Shown one piece after another: positions 2,274 to 9,060 of a stretch of DNA of 24,485 bases. The stretch spans positions 1 through 24,485 of IMG/VR virus record IMGVR_UViG_3300044957_001620. One strand, 5' to 3'. Both the position numbers and the translations under genes were made by a program. Numbering within the stretch: position 1 is the stretch's first letter; every line of letters starts with the position of its first letter. A model generated the notes under the pieces. The model worked only from the letters and a program-made list of their open reading frames with translations, searched no databases and was not told where the DNA came from. The DNA is from a virus.

Positions 2274-2510
2274 CTATGCCTCCATGATTTGAATTTCGGA
2301 GCTGTCGAAGCTGTGGCGGCTTCCGGCCAGATACACCGTCATCGAAACGCGACCGCCGTTCTGATACAGGGTCAGGCTGTTGATGAAGTGGCGCCGGCCC
2401 TGGTGCAGTACGGGGCGTGCGCAGTGCGCCGACTTGAGCAGCAGCCAGTGGTGTTTGTAGGCTTGCATGTCGAGCGGCTCTACCTGGCTGGTGTCGACGG
2501 GGCCAGTCAT
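2274..2510 (-). CDS. Hypothetical protein of the leftward operon
   Basis: A 78-aa protein that I cannot assign. Its ATG at 2510 overlaps the TGA of the upstream ATPase gene in an ATGA junction, so it is translationally coupled to that gene. The sequence has a helical segment around residues 15-30 (MQAYKHHWLLLKSAHC) and then alternating strand-like residues (LTLYQNGGRVSMTVYLAG). There is no membrane segment or catalytic motif that I can name. The close coupling hints that it may act with the SF3 ATPase encoded just before it, but that is inference from position only. Confidence 0.5.
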   Translation of the reverse strand: MTGPVDTSQVEPLDMQAYKHHWLLLKSAHCARPVLHQGRRHFINSLTLYQNGGRVSMTVYLAGSRHSFDSSEIQIMEA

Positions 2511-3292
2511 GCCGCACTCCTGTAGCCATGGCGCACTGATGCCGGCGGCAGGGTGCTCTCGTTGAACGTTCCCATGTCGAGGCCGTGCATCAGATACTCG
2601 CGAAATGCGTCGGCACCGCCCTCGAAGATCTCGTGCACGACGGCCTGGTAGAACGCGCGCTGGCGTGCGGGTGGCACTTCGATGACCGTGAACCTGCGGC
2701 TGCCGATGTCGGCGGGCAGGAAGTCAGGGCTGCTGGTGACGTAGATGAAGTTCAGACGGTTCGGGATTCGCTTTGCCAGCTGGCCCTTACGCTCGATGAC
2801 GAAGGACTCGGCCGCCATCGCTTCCTTCATTCGCGTTATGTGCGATCGCGCGAACTCGCCGTCGACCACCGTCAGGCTGATGCCTTCAATCCATCCGTTG
2901 AATACGCTGTGCAGGTCTCGAGGCTGGATCCGCGCGGCGACATTGCCGTACAGCTCGGCAACGACGAAGTTCAGGAACAGGGATTTGCCTGATCCTTCGC
3001 CGCCGTTGAAGACCAGAGCGGTCGACATCTTTGCGCCGGGATTACGGAGTGGATATGCCAGCCAGCGAAGAACCCATATGTGCAGCTCGTCGTCCATGTC
3101 GCATAGGTGAGCCAGCAGCGTCATGATGTTGCTGCAGTGTGCCGGCCGCGCGGCGATTGCCGGCGCCGATGCCGGCGCCATCATCGCCTTAAGCGTGGTC
3201 AAAATCGCATTGAGGCCTGCGAGCGGCGCGGCGAGGCTGCGAACGGCTGCATTGCTAAAGTCAATAAAGGCGGTGGCCATGGTGTCTTTCAT
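2507..3292 (-). CDS. Stand-alone SF3/DUF5906 ATPase domain, paralogue of the main helicase
   Basis: A 261-aa protein that corresponds to the C-terminal ATPase part of the 961-aa primase-helicase encoded at 6175-9060, without its TOPRIM region. The two share RWLAYPLRNPGAKM exactly and align throughout. Walker A is GGEGSGKS (residues 97-104), Walker B is VVDGE (142-146) and the arginine-finger region is GSRRF (197-201). The sensor-1 position reads SS where the large protein has SN, so hydrolysis may be altered. Residues 1-50 are Ala-rich and unrelated to the larger protein. Codon choices in the shared stretch differ widely, so the duplication is not recent. It lies in the leftward operon, opposite to replication genes. 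It may modulate or block replication (own or of superinfecting phage), or be an accessory helicase. Start could also be the ATG at 3280. Confidence 0.8.
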   Translation of the reverse strand: MKDTMATAFIDFSNAAVRSLAAPLAGLNAILTTLKAMMAPASAPAIAARPAHCSNIMTLLAHLCDMDDELHIWVLRWLAYPLRNPGAKMSTALVFNGGEGSGKSLFLNFVVAELYGNVAARIQPRDLHSVFNGWIEGISLTVVDGEFARSHITRMKEAMAAESFVIERKGQLAKRIPNRLNFIYVTSSPDFLPADIGSRRFTVIEVPPARQRAFYQAVVHEIFEGGADAFREYLMHGLDMGTFNESTLPPASVRHGYRSAA

Positions 3293-3749: not shown

Positions 3750-3792
3750 ATATTACTAAACGGTAATGATGTTCGTCAACACCATTTGGTAA
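3750..3792 (-). promoter_or_regulatory. pL promoter with operators oL1 and oL2
   Basis: Read leftward there is a -35 TTGACG (3779-3774), an 18-bp spacer and a -10 TAATAT (3755-3750). Two 14-bp operator-like sites lie on it: oL1 TTACTAAACGGTAA (3753-3766), which sits between the -35 and overlaps the -10, and oL2 ACACCATTTGGTAA (3779-3792), which abuts the -35. The centre-to-centre distance is 26 bp. The block is nearly the same as the pR/oR block on the opposite strand, including an identical 20-base segment across oL1 and the -10, which is strong internal evidence for joint control by the repressor and Cro. Confidence 0.85.
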
Positions 3793-3925
3793 TATGCGGT
3801 AGTTTGCGGGGAATTCTGCGAAAAAAAGGCGGTGCAACAGTGGGCGTATGCGTTTTGCATGTCGTGCATATGCATCGGCACGACAGGCTACACAGCGGGC
3901 GCGGCGGGGCCGAAAATCTTGGATA

Positions 3926-3945
3926 TACTGTATATTCATACAGTA
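3926..3945 (+). promoter_or_regulatory. LexA (SOS) box
   Basis: TACTGTATATTCATACAGTA carries CTGT and ACAG separated by 8 bp with TA flanks, a near-perfect match to the enterobacterial LexA consensus CTGT-N8-ACAG, which is also used by Betaproteobacteria. It stands about 58 bp upstream of the start of the 56-aa plus-strand gene at 4003. Promoter elements are weaker to read (a possible -35 TTGGAT at 3920-3925), but the box would cover the promoter. Expected effect: host LexA silences this promoter and DNA damage opens it. Confidence 0.8.
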
Positions 3946-4002
3946 AAAAGGTGTAGCATAACGACTACAGAGTTATCTGTAGGAAATGCTGGGTGAGGTG
4001 AG

Positions 4003-4173
4003 GTGGAAGACTATTTCAAAGAAATGAAAGACGCGCTTCGGGCGATGACGCCGGAAGCGCGTGCTGAGATGTTGAGACTGGCGCAAGCCATGGCCGTGAA
4101 GCACCCGGCCCAGGCGCGGCCGGCGTTACGACTGGTAAACGGAGTCAGATCCGGAGCGGTTGCTTACCGCTGA
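4003..4173 (+). CDS. Tiny SOS-controlled protein, candidate antirepressor
   Basis: A 56-aa frame starting at GTG 4003 with a purine-rich GAGGTGAG just before it (close spacing), or at an internal ATG at 4024 (49 aa). The first 35 residues look like one or two amphipathic helices (DYFKEMKDALRAMTPEARAE, then MLRLAQAMAVKH); the rest is basic and Pro/Ala-rich. I do not recognise the family. It is preceded by a LexA box and converges on the repressor gene, overlapping its last 48 bp. The repressor has no self-cleavage domain, so an SOS-made small antirepressor, as known in Gifsy-type phages and for Tum of phage 186, would explain how DNA damage induces this prophage. Function is inference from context. 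Confidence 0.55.
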   Translation: MEDYFKEMKDALRAMTPEARAEMLRLAQAMAVKHPAQARPALRLVNGVRSGAVAYR

Positions 4174-4566
4174 CTCAGCCGCAGTTTCGATCAGGCTCTT
4201 TCCTATGTCAGGAGAGCTGCGATAGTTTGTGAGCAGGTCCAGCTCACGTTGCGTGACATACACAAGAGCCATCCATTGCGGCTCGATATTTTCTACCACT
4301 GAAAGCAGTGGTCGCTGGGCAGAGCTCGGTGGCGGGGCTTCGATCGCCGTTTCAGTTGTTGGATCGGTGTCGAACCAGCCGCGCGGCAGCCCGCACTTTT
4401 CCTCGAGCTTTCTAGCCTTTTTCTCCCCGAACGCCTTCGTGCGGAGCAGGCCTGACACTTCCCCCTGGTTCTCTCCAGTCTCGTCGACGAACTTGGCCTG
4501 AGATCCTTCGTATTTTTCTTGGATCAGCTGCGCTAGACGGGCGCGCCGGATGTCTTGAATTTCCAT
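4126..4566 (-). CDS. CI-like phage repressor without S24 peptidase domain
   Basis: A 146-aa protein. Residues about 5-65 form a lambda-repressor-like helix-turn-helix domain (QAKFVDETGENQGEVSGLL as helices 2-3, then KKARKLEEKCGLPRGWFD, the usual end of the domain in proteobacterial phage repressors). The following 80 residues include a Pro/Ser linker and a short region (QWMALVYVTQRELDLLTNYR). There is no room for, and no sign of, the Ala-Gly cleavage site and Ser/Lys pair of the LexA/CI S24 peptidase; cleavable CI proteins are usually about 200-240 aa. The gene is divergent from the Cro-like gene across the oR sites, and an AGGA lies about ten bases before the ATG. It should bind the TTACY-N4-RGTAA operators to keep lysogeny. 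Without autocleavage, induction needs another route. Confidence 0.85.
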   Translation of the reverse strand: MEIQDIRRARLAQLIQEKYEGSQAKFVDETGENQGEVSGLLRTKAFGEKKARKLEEKCGLPRGWFDTDPTTETAIEAPPPSSAQRPLLSVVENIEPQWMALVYVTQRELDLLTNYRSSPDIGKSLIETAAESAVSNRSGSDSVYQS

Positions 4567-4586
4567 AGCCGGATTGTCCTAGCCGA

Positions 4587-4644
4587 TTACTAAATAGTAA
4601 ATCACCAAATGGTATTGACCTACCTCATTACCGTTTAGTAATAT
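4587..4644 (+). promoter_or_regulatory. oR operators and rightward promoter pR
   Basis: pR has -35 TTGACC (4615-4620), an 18-bp spacer and -10 TAATAT (4639-4644). Three 14-bp sites are present: oR3 TTACTAAATAGTAA (4587-4600), oR2 TCACCAAATGGTAT (4602-4615) and oR1 TTACCGTTTAGTAA (4628-4641). oR1 lies in the pR spacer and -10; oR3 is closest to the repressor gene and probably controls its leftward promoter. oR1 and oR2 centres are 26 bp apart, as at oL. The layout is that of lambda oR with three sites between divergent repressor and Cro genes. Confidence 0.85.
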
Positions 4645-4652
4645 GTTTGCCC

Positions 4653-4916
4653 ATGGACAAATTACTCGCATACCTAAACAGCCTCGATAAGGTGGCGCGC
4701 GCCGAATTCTGCGCAGCCTGCGGCACGACAGAGCGCTACCTCCGCAAGGCTGTCAGCGTTTCGCAACGTCTCGGCGCCGATCTGTGCATCAACATCGACC
4801 GCGCATCTCGCGGCCAGGTCACGTGTGAGCATCTCCGCCCAGACGTCGACTGGGCCTACCTGCGCGGCACCGACAAGGGCGCCGGCAAGGCGTCGGATGG
4901 CCTCGGCAATGCGTAA
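4653..4916 (+). CDS. Cro/YdaS-like DNA-binding protein
   Basis: An 87-aa protein from the ATG at 4653. It begins MDKLLAYLNSLDKVARAEFC and continues with ACGTTERYLRKAVSVSQRLG, a compact helix-turn-helix typical of the YdaS/Cro-like family, with the familiar ending CEHLRPDVDWAYLRG. It is the first gene of the rightward early transcript, divergent from the repressor, and should lower repressor and pL/pR transcription during lytic growth. No Shine-Dalgarno precedes the start and the predicted pR start point falls only a base or two before the ATG, so the mRNA may be leaderless. In other contexts YdaS members have been described as antitoxins, but the place here is that of Cro. Its last 60 bp overlap the convergent WYL-like gene. 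Confidence 0.85.
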   Translation: MDKLLAYLNSLDKVARAEFCAACGTTERYLRKAVSVSQRLGADLCINIDRASRGQVTCEHLRPDVDWAYLRGTDKGAGKASDGLGNA

Positions 4917-5185: not shown

Positions 5186-5228
5186 AGGGACCTTTAAGAG
5201 TTTCAGAGCGGAAAGAAGTGTTCGCACT

Positions 5229-5242
5229 TTACTGCTAAGTAA
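5229..5242. promoter_or_regulatory. Extra operator-like site of the immunity consensus
   Basis: TTACTGCTAAGTAA fits the TTACY-N4-RGTAA consensus of the oL and oR sites exactly. It lies between the divergent WYL-like gene (start 5185) and YmfL-like gene (start 5277). A second small inverted repeat, TTGGT-AAA-ACCAA, follows at 5246-5258. The repressor or Cro could thus control a second divergent promoter pair here. Promoter elements are not clear enough to mark. Confidence 0.55.
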
Positions 5243-5276
5243 AAGTTGGTAAAACCAAAATAAATCAGAGGGATGT

Positions 5277-5747
5277 ATGGGACTGCGTGATGCAAAGCTG
5301 AAGATGATCGCCGGGATCACTGGCTCCTGGGAGGTCGCAGCGGCCTACCTGGGCATGACGGTGAACGCGCTGCGCAACCGGGCCTACGAGGTCAAGGGGC
5401 AGGTGCTGAGCGAAGACCACTGCCTGGCCCTGCAGACGCTCTCGGGCACGACCCACTACGCTGAGGCGATCGCCACGGCGTCGGGCGGCGTGTTCGTAAA
5501 GCTGCCGGATGACCTGGGCTGCGAGAACGAGGCGCTGATGAAGAAGTTCAACGATCTCTATACCGAGCTGGGCACGTTCTCGCGCGACTTCAGCGCGGCC
5601 ACGGCCGACGAGAAGATCGACCAGCGTGAGCGGACGATCCTGGAAGAGGACGCAGCTCGGATGCACAAGGTGCTCTCCGAGCTGGTGGCCCTGATGTTCC
5701 GAATTTATACCCCGCAGGCACCTGTCGCCCGTCCGGAGGGCGCATGA
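5277..5747 (+). CDS. YmfL/CII-like phage regulatory protein
   Basis: A 156-aa protein with Shine-Dalgarno AGAGGG just before the ATG. Residues about 13-55 carry a helix-turn-helix with the characteristic stretch SWEVAAAYLGMTVNALRNRA followed by YEVKGQVLSEDHCLALQTLS, as in YmfL/CII-type phage regulators. The C-terminal half is helical and charged (KKFNDLYTELGTFSRDF; DEKIDQRERTILEEDAAR) and probably drives oligomerisation. By place (first rightward gene after Cro) and fold it is likely to set early promoter activity, as CII does in lambda, but its target site is not known. It overlaps the next gene by 4 bp, so it is coupled to the replication block. Confidence 0.8.
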   Translation: MGLRDAKLKMIAGITGSWEVAAAYLGMTVNALRNRAYEVKGQVLSEDHCLALQTLSGTTHYAEAIATASGGVFVKLPDDLGCENEALMKKFNDLYTELGTFSRDFSAATADEKIDQRERTILEEDAARMHKVLSELVALMFRIYTPQAPVARPEGA

Positions 5748-6178
5748 GCAAGATGAAGCCACCCGTACCTGGCAGCGGCTCGTATTTGGCCCTGGTGCAT
5801 CTCGAGAAGATGGGCGGCACTGCCACCATCAAAGGCCTGCTGCTGCAGTTGCTCTGGACTGAAACGCCGGGGAAATTCCAGCGCCTCGTCATCGGCCCGC
5901 TTGAGCGCAGGGGGCTCGTGCTTCGCCGCGACGAGCAGCTTTCGCTCACCGCCGTCGGCGCCAAGCTCCTGAACCCGGCTGCCGACGCATCGGCCTTGGC
6001 CGCACCAGCCGGCTCCTTCGCTCCGCCGGCGACGCCGCTCTCGAGCCGGAATCGGCCTCGGGTCGCAATCTTGCGGCCAGGGGCGCTCGACTATCGCGGG
6101 ATCCCGTCGCGTCTGGCTGATCAACAGGTCGCCTTCCGCAGCAGCATTGCCGTGCACCACGAGGACTGCAACGGATGA
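5744..6178 (+). CDS. Winged-helix-like phage protein of the replication block
   Basis: A 144-aa protein coupled at both ends by ATGA overlaps; GGAGGG precedes its start. Residues about 12-75 look like a winged helix (SYLALVHLEKMGGTATIKGL, then a second helix GKFQRLVIGPLERRGLV and a hairpin wing RRDEQLSLTAVGAKLL). A Pro/Ala-rich linker follows. The C-terminal segment RPGALDYRGIPSRLADQQVA is a motif I remember from other phage hypothetical proteins, often next to primase genes. Being placed directly before the primase-helicase, it may bind origin DNA or help load the helicase, in the manner of lambda O or P. This is inference from fold pattern and position. Confidence 0.65.
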   Translation: MSKMKPPVPGSGSYLALVHLEKMGGTATIKGLLLQLLWTETPGKFQRLVIGPLERRGLVLRRDEQLSLTAVGAKLLNPAADASALAAPAGSFAPPATPLSSRNRPRVAILRPGALDYRGIPSRLADQQVAFRSSIAVHHEDCNG

Positions 6179-9060
6179 GCGATGTCGCACAAGTAGTGGC
6201 GCAAATGACGGAGTATGGCCTGCCGCCGCTACCGGCAAACCATCCAGTCCTGGACGGCAAGTACAAGCGCTTCGGTCCCGGCAAGAAGGGCTGGTACATC
6301 CTGCGCCGCATGACACTGCGCAGTGGCCGCGAGGTCGTCACCGGCGCCTTCGGCTACTTCCAGGGCGAGAACCGCAACACCGTTCCGGTCAAGGTCGACG
6401 TGGCCGCGATGAGCGAGGACGAGAAGGCCGAGTACGTTCGCCAGCAGCGGGCCTCCGAGAAGGCCGAGCAGGAAAAGCGCGAGGAGGAGATCCGCCTCGC
6501 AGCCGGCCGCGCGCGCGACCAATGGGCCAAAGGGCAGGGCGTGCCGGTCGAGCATCCCTACCTGGTGCAGAAGCAGGTGCAGGCTGAAGGCCTGCGCGTG
6601 AGTGCCGACGGCAAGCAGCTGCTCATCCCGCTGCGGCGCGGTGGCCAGCTTCTCGGCCTGCAGAAGATCGATGCGACCGGCAAAAAGCGCTTGAACGAGG
6701 GTATGGACGCGATTGGCGTCGCGCACATCCTCGGCACCCTGCGCGGTGCGCCGATCATCGCTGTCGGCGAGGGTTACGCAACCTGCAAGACCGCGCGCGA
6801 CAGCGTGGCTGGCGAGTACGACCTCCCGGTGGCCATGGCCCTCAACGCCGGCAACCTGCTTCACGTAGCCCGCCTGCTGCGCGAGGCCTATCCGGCCGCG
6901 CACCTCCTCTTCCTGGCCGATGACGACTACCTGCTGGTCGAGCGCTACGTCGAGCGCCTGCAGGAGGATTTCGGTGTGGTCGTGCCTGTGCCGATCGACG
7001 GCGCCGCGCACACCGTCCTGGCTCAAGATGGCGAGCGCGTCGAGGTCCTGGCGCGCTGGCGTGAGGACGCGCAGGGCATCCGGTACATCGAGGCGGACAT
7101 GCGCAAGGGTCGCCTGGTGCGCACGCCTACCTTCAAGAACGCCGGCGTGTCGAGCTGCCACGCGGCCGCGCGAGAGGTGGGCAACGCCTCGGTGGCCGTG
7201 CCGGTGTTTGCGGTCGACCGCGCAGGGCGCAAGCTGACGGACTACAACGACGTGCAGATCGAGGAAGGGCTGGAATCGGTAGCGTCTCAGGTTCGTCTTG
7301 CCATCCTCGCTGCGCAGCAGCGCACAACATCCTCCCCGTCCTCCCCCGCGCCAGCGGCCGAGGAAGCGCTGCAGCCTGCTGCCCACCTTTCCCTCGCTGC
7401 GGAGCAGCGCACAATCTCCCCTCCCGCCCCTCCCGCGCAAGCGGCCGCGGTGGGTGACTTGCACGACCAGGACGAAACCCTTCTCCCCATCGCGCAAGCG
7501 GGCGGGGAAGGTTCGCCTGTGTCCGGTCCCCCCGCCCCCCTCAGCGCGGAGCGGCCAGAGGAGGGGGCGCCCGACGAGCTGCCGGCGGATTTTGATGCCC
7601 GATTTGGGGCGGAAGAGGCCCCTGCAGGGCCTTCCCAGCCACTGGCCAAGGTCTACCCGTTGGTAGCGCCCGGCTCCGCTCCCGCGCGGGGGGAGGGGGA
7701 AAGCGATCCAGGCGACAAGAAAGCGGCGAAGGATAAGCCCAAGAAGGTCTACGGCGACGAGCACTGGAACAAGGTCAACGAGGTGCTCGACAACTTCATC
7801 CTGATCTACGGCGAGGACATGGTGTGGGACTGCCAGCACAGGATGCTGATGCGGATCTCGGCCATGCGCACGATCGTCGGCAACAGCGATGTGATGAAGT
7901 TCTGGAGCGGGCCGCAGCGCCGCTGGGTGCTGAAGAAGAACATCGTGTTCGATCCGACCAACACGCCGTCGCCGGCCGAGAGCGGGCCGACCGCGACCGT
8001 GAACCTGTTCAACGGCTGGCCGATGAAGCCCAAGCAAGGGAAGTGCATCCAGATCCTGACGCTGCTCTCGCACCTGTGCGACGGCAACGAGGAGATGGAG
8101 ACCTGGATCGCGCGCTGGCTGGCCTACCCGCTGCGCAACCCCGGCGCGAAGATGGAGACGTCGATCATCATGCACGGCGACGAGGGCTCCGGTAAGAACT
8201 TCTTCTTCGAGCGCGTGGTGAAGCCGATCTACGGCGAATACGGCTACGTGATCGGCAACGACCAGCTGGAGAGCAAGTTCAACGATTGGGCCAGCATGAA
8301 GCTGTTCATGGTGGCCGACGAGGTGGTCACCAGGGCCGAGCTCAAGCAGATGAAGGGCAAGCTCAAGGGGCTGATCTCGGGCGACACCGTGATCGTCAAC
8401 CCGAAGGGCCTGCCCGAGCACGTCGAGAAGAACCAGATGAATTTTGTGTTCCTCTCCAACGAGCTGCAGCCGCTCGCCCTGGACAAGACAGACCGGCGAT
8501 ACCTGGTCGTGTGGACGCCGCCGGCCCTCACCAAGGAGTTCTACCAAAGCGTGGCCGAGGAGATCCGCAAGGGCGGCATCGAGGCGTTCTACCACTACCT
8601 GGTGCACGAATTGGACATGGGGGACTTCGACCGGCACACGAAGCCGATCTACAACGACGCCAAAGACAAGCTGATCGAGAAGAGCCTGATGCCGTCGGAA
8701 CGCTTCTACCGCGAGTGGTCCGGTGGCTTCCTGCCGTTGCCCTTCATCACGGTCGCGGTCAACCAGCTGTACGACGCGTTCAGGGTGTGGTGCGGGCGCT
8801 CGGGCGAACCGATGTACACCTCGATGACGAAGTTCAGCCCCGAGATCGAGCGGTATGCCGGCGGCACGCTCAAGAAAAAGCTCATCAAGTATGAGCTAGG
8901 CGAGGAGGTCAAGCAGCGCGTGGTGTTCATGGTCGGCGACCTTCCCGCCGGCCGTACGTTCAGCGACTGGGCTGAGGCATCGGGCGCCCTGTTCGAGAAG
9001 CACTACCAGACCTACCGCAACCGTGGAGGACCCCAGCCAGGGCTCGATGTGGGGAGTTGA
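6175..9060 (+). CDS. TOPRIM + SF3/DUF5906 primase-helicase
   Basis: A 961-aa replication protein. The N-terminal part (about 20-70) resembles the region before TOPRIM in P4/T7-type primases; a charged helix follows (80-110). The TOPRIM domain spans about 190-265, with GEG (Glu199) and the acidic triad DDD (249-251), so it is expected to make primers or handle nucleotidyl transfer. A Pro/Ala-rich linker covers about 375-520. The C-terminal SF3-type helicase has Walker A GDEGSGKN (668-675), Walker B MVADE (712-716), sensor FLSN and arginine finger DRRY (773-776). It should act at the phage origin, for which the TTCACA cluster directly downstream is the best candidate. The length is about that expected for fused primase-helicases. 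A truncated paralogue of the helicase part is encoded at 2507-3292. Confidence 0.92.
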   Translation: MSDVAQVVAQMTEYGLPPLPANHPVLDGKYKRFGPGKKGWYILRRMTLRSGREVVTGAFGYFQGENRNTVPVKVDVAAMSEDEKAEYVRQQRASEKAEQEKREEEIRLAAGRARDQWAKGQGVPVEHPYLVQKQVQAEGLRVSADGKQLLIPLRRGGQLLGLQKIDATGKKRLNEGMDAIGVAHILGTLRGAPIIAVGEGYATCKTARDSVAGEYDLPVAMALNAGNLLHVARLLREAYPAAHLLFLADDDYLLVERYVERLQEDFGVVVPVPIDGAAHTVLAQDGERVEVLARWREDAQGIRYIEADMRKGRLVRTPTFKNAGVSSCHAAAREVGNASVAVPVFAVDRAGRKLTDYNDVQIEEGLESVASQVRLAILAAQQRTTSSPSSPAPAAEEALQPAAHLSLAAEQRTISPPAPPAQAAAVGDLHDQDETLLPIAQAGGEGSPVSGPPAPLSAERPEEGAPDELPADFDARFGAEEAPAGPSQPLAKVYPLVAPGSAPARGEGESDPGDKKAAKDKPKKVYGDEHWNKVNEVLDNFILIYGEDMVWDCQHRMLMRISAMRTIVGNSDVMKFWSGPQRRWVLKKNIVFDPTNTPSPAESGPTATVNLFNGWPMKPKQGKCIQILTLLSHLCDGNEEMETWIARWLAYPLRNPGAKMETSIIMHGDEGSGKNFFFERVVKPIYGEYGYVIGNDQLESKFNDWASMKLFMVADEVVTRAELKQMKGKLKGLISGDTVIVNPKGLPEHVEKNQMNFVFLSNELQPLALDKTDRRYLVVWTPPALTKEFYQSVAEEIRKGGIEAFYHYLVHELDMGDFDRHTKPIYNDAKDKLIEKSLMPSERFYREWSGGFLPLPFITVAVNQLYDAFRVWCGRSGEPMYTSMTKFSPEIERYAGGTLKKKLIKYELGEEVKQRVVFMVGDLPAGRTFSDWAEASGALFEKHYQTYRNRGGPQPGLDVGS
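7306..7700 (+). repeat. Repeat-rich Pro/Ala linker inside the primase-helicase gene
   Basis: Two 22-bp segments, 7306-7327 and 7393-7414, agree at 21 of 22 positions, are exactly 87 bp (29 codons) apart and encode LAAQQRT and LAAEQRT. Each contains a small palindrome around CGCTGC/GCAGCG. Further C-rich/G-rich inverted segments follow (for example CTTCTCCCC at 7480-7488 with GGGGAAGG at 7504-7511, and CTCCCGCGCGGGGGGAGGGG at about 7678-7697). The strand-asymmetric C-runs are unlike the rest of the gene. This looks like REP-type intergenic repeats kept in frame as a flexible linker. Confidence 0.5.

Follow-up and report, generated by a model that had tools for sequence, protein, structure and literature searches.

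The stretch of viral DNA analyzed here (the window; IMG/VR virus record IMGVR_UViG_3300044957_001620, positions 1-24,485, 24,485 nucleotides in all) carries replication, terminase, portal, head, and tail phage genes, together with a lysogeny switch in which a 56-residue protein probably serves as the SOS-induced antirepressor of a repressor without the S24 peptidase domain. A sequence scan located a LexA (SOS) box, TACTGTATATTCATACAGTA, at positions 3926-3945, directly 5' of the small gene (4003-4173, + strand, GTG start), which is predicted to encode an antirepressor on the basis of its homologues, its ratio of nonsynonymous to synonymous substitution (dN/dS), and its helical model. The prophage repressor gene (4126-4566, - strand; 146 residues, N-terminal helix-turn-helix) converges on the small gene, and their coordinates give a tail-to-tail overlap of 48 bp (4126-4173). 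A first-pass annotation of this DNA had described the same box directly upstream of the same frame, the convergent overlap, and the repressor lacking S24, and our analysis recovered every one of these features in place. Because this repressor would have no self-cleavage, it needs another route of removal upon DNA damage. The small protein is best explained as an antirepressor because its gene appears to be LexA-controlled, adjoins the repressor gene, and is missing where the repressor is of the cleavable type. In our best reading, the antirepressor module would lie inside the immunity region and share DNA with its own target.

LexA box and coding capacity of the small gene

The box matches the LexA consensus TACTGTATATATATACAGTA at 18 of 20 positions. 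A site with only two mismatches occurs once in the window and in none of 100 shuffled sequences; the looser core CTGTn8ACAG is expected 0.19 times per window and is not significant alone. When the small protein and the repressor were used as queries, 13 relatives were found (12 viral contigs and a Massilia genome), and the box is present in all 14 contigs of the resulting clade, the window included. Over these 14 sequences the core is 100% identical and the 16-bp box 95% identical, while the median pairwise identity of the 98 bp upstream of the box is 30%, which is near random. These results indicate that the box is conserved by selection and not by recent ancestry. A TAnnAT element (TAGCAT in the window; TAGnAT or TAnGAT in relatives) lies 3' of the box in all clade contigs, and the alignment of the 14 contigs places the window's -10-like hexamer TAGCAT directly past the box, at 3954-3959 on the + strand. 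We infer that this hexamer is the promoter of the small gene; the promoter scan found no -35 consensus near it. The GTG or TTG start codon of the small gene, 59-76 bp 3' of the box, is retained in the clade with its Shine-Dalgarno-like context.

A LexA box of this form is in use in the host type: the Massilia genome carries CTGTACAAAAATACAG immediately 5' of lexA, and CTGTAn6TACAG palindromes number 10 there, versus 2 for the reversed control. The ten CTGTAn6TACAG sites of Massilia sp. IC2-278 (G001), a carrier resembling a lysogen, which include those at lexA and at the prophage switch, provide a candidate list for the SOS regulon.

Outside the overlap, the substitutions in the small gene number 402, 343, and 1086 at the three codon positions, and dN/dS is ~0.1. 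The predominance of third-position substitutions and the low dN/dS indicate that the frame is a protein-coding gene. The convergent overlap with the repressor gene is retained both in the clade and in most of the distant relatives. Related frames are mostly 50 residues long, and the final 6 residues of the window protein are peculiar to it and its nearest relatives. The protein is helical and soluble-looking, with helices modeled at low to moderate confidence at residues 2-14 and 17-33 (predicted local distance difference test score, pLDDT, 72).

No convincing match to the small protein was found in Pfam, PHROGs, NCBIfam, PDB sequences, or PDB folds. Phage 186 Tum (compared with all filters off), E. 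coli Rem, and the N15 genes tested gave no match; annotated phage and plasmid collections held no homologue beyond chance; and its profile retrieved no chain of 5d50, the structure with SPC32H Ant, up to E 1. The first-pass annotation, which could assign the protein to none of the known antirepressor families, is thus borne out for Tum, Rem, the N15 genes, Pfam, and NCBIfam, and by these searches the small protein is a new family. A match to PHROG 63 'Ant' (E 0.028) involved one member only and was not relied on, and the protein is not P22 Ant. A Chloroflexi match (L022) is unrelated, having a frame of 133 residues or longer and no box, and the weak matches L028, L029, L033, and L038-L041 were not used.

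The repressor, its relatives, and competing roles for the small gene

The repressor has no S24 match in Pfam or PHROGs. Its residues 1-88 match phage-repressor PHROGs, and its closest solved relative is SPC32H Rep (PDB 5d50; profile E 5e-9, also the top fold match), with sequence similarity confined to the N-terminal domain. The repressor is more than a bare helix-turn-helix: its last ~48 residues make up a segment that is conserved in the relatives, with the motif 'VYVxxxELxLLTxYRxAxxxGKxxIxxAAExA'. In the window this segment covers residues 98-146 (4129-4275, - strand) and is predicted with low confidence to be a helical hairpin, the modeled helices lying at 106-116 and 123-134 (low to moderate confidence). 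A degraded S24 domain past the repressor end was considered and is unsupported, the repressor ending at the C-terminal segment common to its relatives.

When the repressor profile was run against 393 genomes of the host family, it retrieved repressors whose DNA-binding domain is related but whose C-termini differ. L046, L047, L082, and Paraburkholderia phage IPK (L023) have operators (TTACn6GTAA palindromes) and a Cro of the same type as the window and a related DNA-binding domain, but their repressors carry a Peptidase_S24 domain. These four have neither a LexA box nor a small frame adjoining the repressor 3' end. Some twenty further long repressors with the S24 serine motif (L050 confirmed by Pfam) likewise show no LexA box and no 3' small frame; the long S24 repressors are largely one close family and represent perhaps six independent S24 lineages. 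Each of the 14 clade contigs has the small frame, the box, and the S24-less repressor, and both box and frame are missing from related immunity regions whose repressor carries S24.

Sixteen distant loci (L025, L026, L027, L030/L036, L031, L032, L034, L035, L084-L089, L092, and L134, of which L087, L089, and L134 have weak scores and were assigned partly on layout) have a convergent small frame beside an S24-less repressor with a common C-terminal segment of ~45 residues. The DNA-binding domains of this S24-less set belong to several XRE types, though the C-terminal segment is the same. This segment is the probable contact of the small protein, because it co-occurs with the small gene while the DNA-binding domains change. 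There are exceptions. L090 has the segment, but no convergent frame was found there, and L091 lacks the helix-turn-helix. In L084, L085, L086, L087, and L092, two S24-less repressors that share the C-terminal segment lie in tandem, and only the distal copy adjoins the small frame.

Instead, the small protein might be an effector (for example a toxin, an inhibitor of cell division or replication, or an exclusion factor) that is induced in the SOS response and has nothing to do with the repressor, its gene being a mere neighbor of the repressor gene. Small effectors of this kind do occur in phages under SOS induction, and the empty family searches would suit one. We nevertheless regard this role as unlikely: the small gene tracks S24-less repressors with one C-terminal segment across differing DNA-binding domains and inputs, it is missing beside S24 repressors, its product looks helical and soluble, and a prophage without it would have no visible SOS route.

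It is still less probable that the SOS transcript acts in place of the protein, by running antisense through the repressor gene and reading through into the Cro operon. The 48-bp overlap is in favor of such an effect, and a scan of the + strand found no terminator-like site between the small frame and the right operators, as the first-pass annotation had stated. However, protein constraint is strong in the small frame outside the overlap, with start codon and Shine-Dalgarno-like context retained, and antisense RNA alone would leave the existing repressor protein in place, this repressor having no self-cleavage. The reading frame is conserved and also occurs in relatives that have other inputs, which argues for the protein, and against antisense RNA, as the main product. 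Antisense transcription and read-through may contribute alongside antirepression. The first-pass annotation had proposed both as additions to a small antirepressor that is under LexA control and acts on a repressor unable to cleave itself; the antirepressor has gained strong comparative support from the 14 of 14 co-occurrence and the S24 contrast, and the additions have acquired no specific support. Finally, a co-repressor or tuner that, for example, restores repression after damage is very improbable. Co-occurrence with the repressor leaves the sign of the effect unset, but such a protein under SOS control would strengthen lysogeny during damage in an S24-less prophage with no other induction route, and the known precedents of such a layout are antirepressors (PMC3121763).

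How an antirepressor would engage the C-terminal segment is suggested by a profile alignment of 'EMKDALRAMTPEARAEMLRLAQAMAVK' in the small protein with 'DLLTNYRSSPDIGKSLIETAAESAVSN' in the repressor C-terminus, which are in register with a score of 15.2. Column-shuffled controls scored 7.3 +/- 1.7, and 1 of 200 reached that score (hhalign P 0.007, probability 5%). More speculatively, the small protein may copy the repressor's C-terminal helical hairpin and form mixed oligomers with it, as SinI does with SinR. The likeness to SinR/SinI of Bacillus subtilis (PMC3163267) lies in the two-helix hairpin predicted for both the small protein and the repressor C-terminus and in a modest profile resemblance; it is one of mechanism only, since neither protein belongs to those families by sequence, and SinI is controlled by Spo0A instead of LexA and does not come from a phage.

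Several observations weigh against the antirepressor reading or its details. The 14 clade contigs have common ancestry and hence are not independent. A distance-matrix (mirror-tree) test singled out no partner domain, and the small-protein distances follow the N-terminal domain of the repressor too. The structure models of both proteins are of modest confidence. The profile match behind the mimicry is weak by its hhalign probability, and column shuffling destroys helix periodicity as well.

Immunity region and proposed switch

The immunity region is lambda-like, with an additional gene between the left operators (OL) and the repressor gene. The gene order is leftward early genes, OL, LexA box, small gene (+), repressor (-), right operators (OR), Cro, and a CII-like gene. 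OL comprises 3752-3767 (ATTACTAAACGGTAAT) and 3778-3793 on the - strand, is kept in all relatives aligned, and is overlapped by a leftward sigma-70-like promoter, pL (3779-3750, - strand; promoter scan). The operator scan placed OR at 4586-4601, 4601-4616, and 4627-4642 (+ strand), overlapped by a rightward sigma-70-like promoter, pR (4615-4644, + strand; promoter scan). Downstream are the genes for a Cro-like protein with a YdaS family helix-turn-helix (4653-4916, + strand; Pfam YdaS_toxin 1e-10, PHROG repressor) and for a CII-like regulator (Phage_CP76; 5277-5747, + strand; Pfam, PHROGs).

From the operators and the gene order, the 146-residue repressor of a lysogen would occupy OL and OR and keep pL and pR silent, and host LexA bound at 3926-3945 would hold the small gene off. 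DNA damage would remove LexA and allow the 56-residue protein to be made. This protein would then bind the repressor, most likely via the conserved C-terminal segment, and release it from DNA, so that pL and pR fire.

Two further features were noted near the switch. A palindrome resembling the operators, TTTACTGCTAAGTAAA, is located at 5228-5243, just 5' of the CII-like gene. The leftward operon contains a free-standing VapE/DUF5906 helicase-type protein (2507-3292, - strand), which shares 40% identity with the C-terminal portion of the primase-helicase that the phage itself encodes at 6175-9060.

Known antirepressor systems and possibly exchangeable inputs

SOS-linked antirepression is reported for phage 186 Tum and for N15. 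The CI/Tum pair of phage 186 resembles the window in its LexA-controlled antirepressor and a repressor that is not cleaved, but Tum has 146 residues, a DinI-like half, a position ~6 kb from cI, and no similarity to the window protein. The LexA-controlled mechanism is proven in the Gifsy prophages (PMC3121763). There, GfoR/GtgR with GfoA/GftA/GfhA of Gifsy-1/2/3 likewise combine a short S24-less repressor with a small antirepressor that has a non-ATG start and is under direct LexA control. Unlike the window gene, which lies between OL and OR and is convergent on and overlapping the repressor gene, the Gifsy antirepressor gene is outside the immunity region, behind dinI. The GfoA family was compared with the window protein only via Rem, a reported GfoA relative (PMC10448788), with no match. 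In SPC32H Rep-Ant (PDB 5d50), the closest solved relative of the window repressor was crystallized with its antirepressor, but a search of the PDB chains gave no match between the window protein and Ant.

The TF-smORF modules of linear plasmid-like phages (PMC10432266) are also similar in having antirepressors of ~50 residues, which in their case are counter-oriented to an activating transcription factor. They differ in that they are SOS-independent, lie between repA and telN or near par, and in several cases target repressors that are also self-cleaving. The window has no dedicated counter-oriented transcription factor gene; it has a LexA box instead, and the overlap with the repressor gene. 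The TF-smORF layout is seen in distant relatives of the window, where a counter-oriented gene is Arc-like (L026, L027, L034, L094) or of LysR type (L084, L087, L089, L092). We found no description of the window's arrangement in the literature searched, which is weak evidence, most subscription papers being outside its scope. The switch would be a case of SOS-induced antirepression, a known mechanism, with a new family of small proteins and an unusual overlapping layout.

The input to the small gene appears to vary among the relatives. L035 has a LexA box, TACTGTATAGGTGTACAGTT, with a different repressor type. In L026, L027, L034, and L094 (the small frame of the last recognized by eye only), a divergent gene for an Arc-like ribbon-helix-helix protein lies 90-147 bp upstream of the small gene, and the gap in L026, L027, and L034 contains inverted repeats whose arms covary between loci (TGCCTCCACTATGGAGGCA, TGCCGCCACTTTGGCGGCA, and TGATCTCACTATGAGATCA). 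The immI region of P22 has Arc and Ant. The divergent Arc-like gene beside the small gene in these four loci is similar to that arrangement, unlike the window, which has no Arc-like gene. In L031 and L088 a ribbon-helix-helix gene is ~550 bp away. A divergent LysR-type regulator gene is found 183-207 bp upstream of the small gene in L084, L087, L089, and L092 (L084:184-1086, L087:2451-3356, L089:1988-2881, and L092:2688-3404). No input was assigned in L025, L030, L032, L085, and L086. Upstream of the small gene, L025 (position 1703, ATCCCATATTCATGGGAT) and L030 (position 1727, ATCTCATGTTCATGGGAT), both without a LexA box, have in common a palindrome-like site, possibly that of another regulator. 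Near the switch of L094 and not part of it, a perfect LexA-type site, CTGTACGTATATACAG (L094:729-744), precedes a leftward gene for a secreted-looking protein of 114 residues.

We tentatively propose, as a possibility somewhat short of an even chance, a switch family, mainly of Oxalobacteraceae, that has one repressor/antirepressor output pair, with the antirepressor copying the repressor hairpin, and exchangeable sensors (LexA, Arc-like, and LysR-type). The 3' overlap would hold the pair together while the DNA-binding domain and the sensor are swapped. This pattern of exchangeable sensors is of more interest than the window switch itself. If true, it would be a compact example of temperate phages changing their wake-up signal by sensor exchange with the pair retained, and in the LysR-type versions a small molecule, and not DNA damage, would induce the prophage, something for which there are few worked examples. 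It would also add a family of short antirepressors, readily overlooked in gene calling owing to the GTG or TTG start and the overlap with the repressor gene, and the repressor C-terminal segment plus a convergent frame would provide a simple marker for prophages whose induction does not depend on cleavage of the repressor. For the prophage of a Massilia-type soil bacterium represented by the window, waking up would most likely consist of a small protein disabling the repressor.
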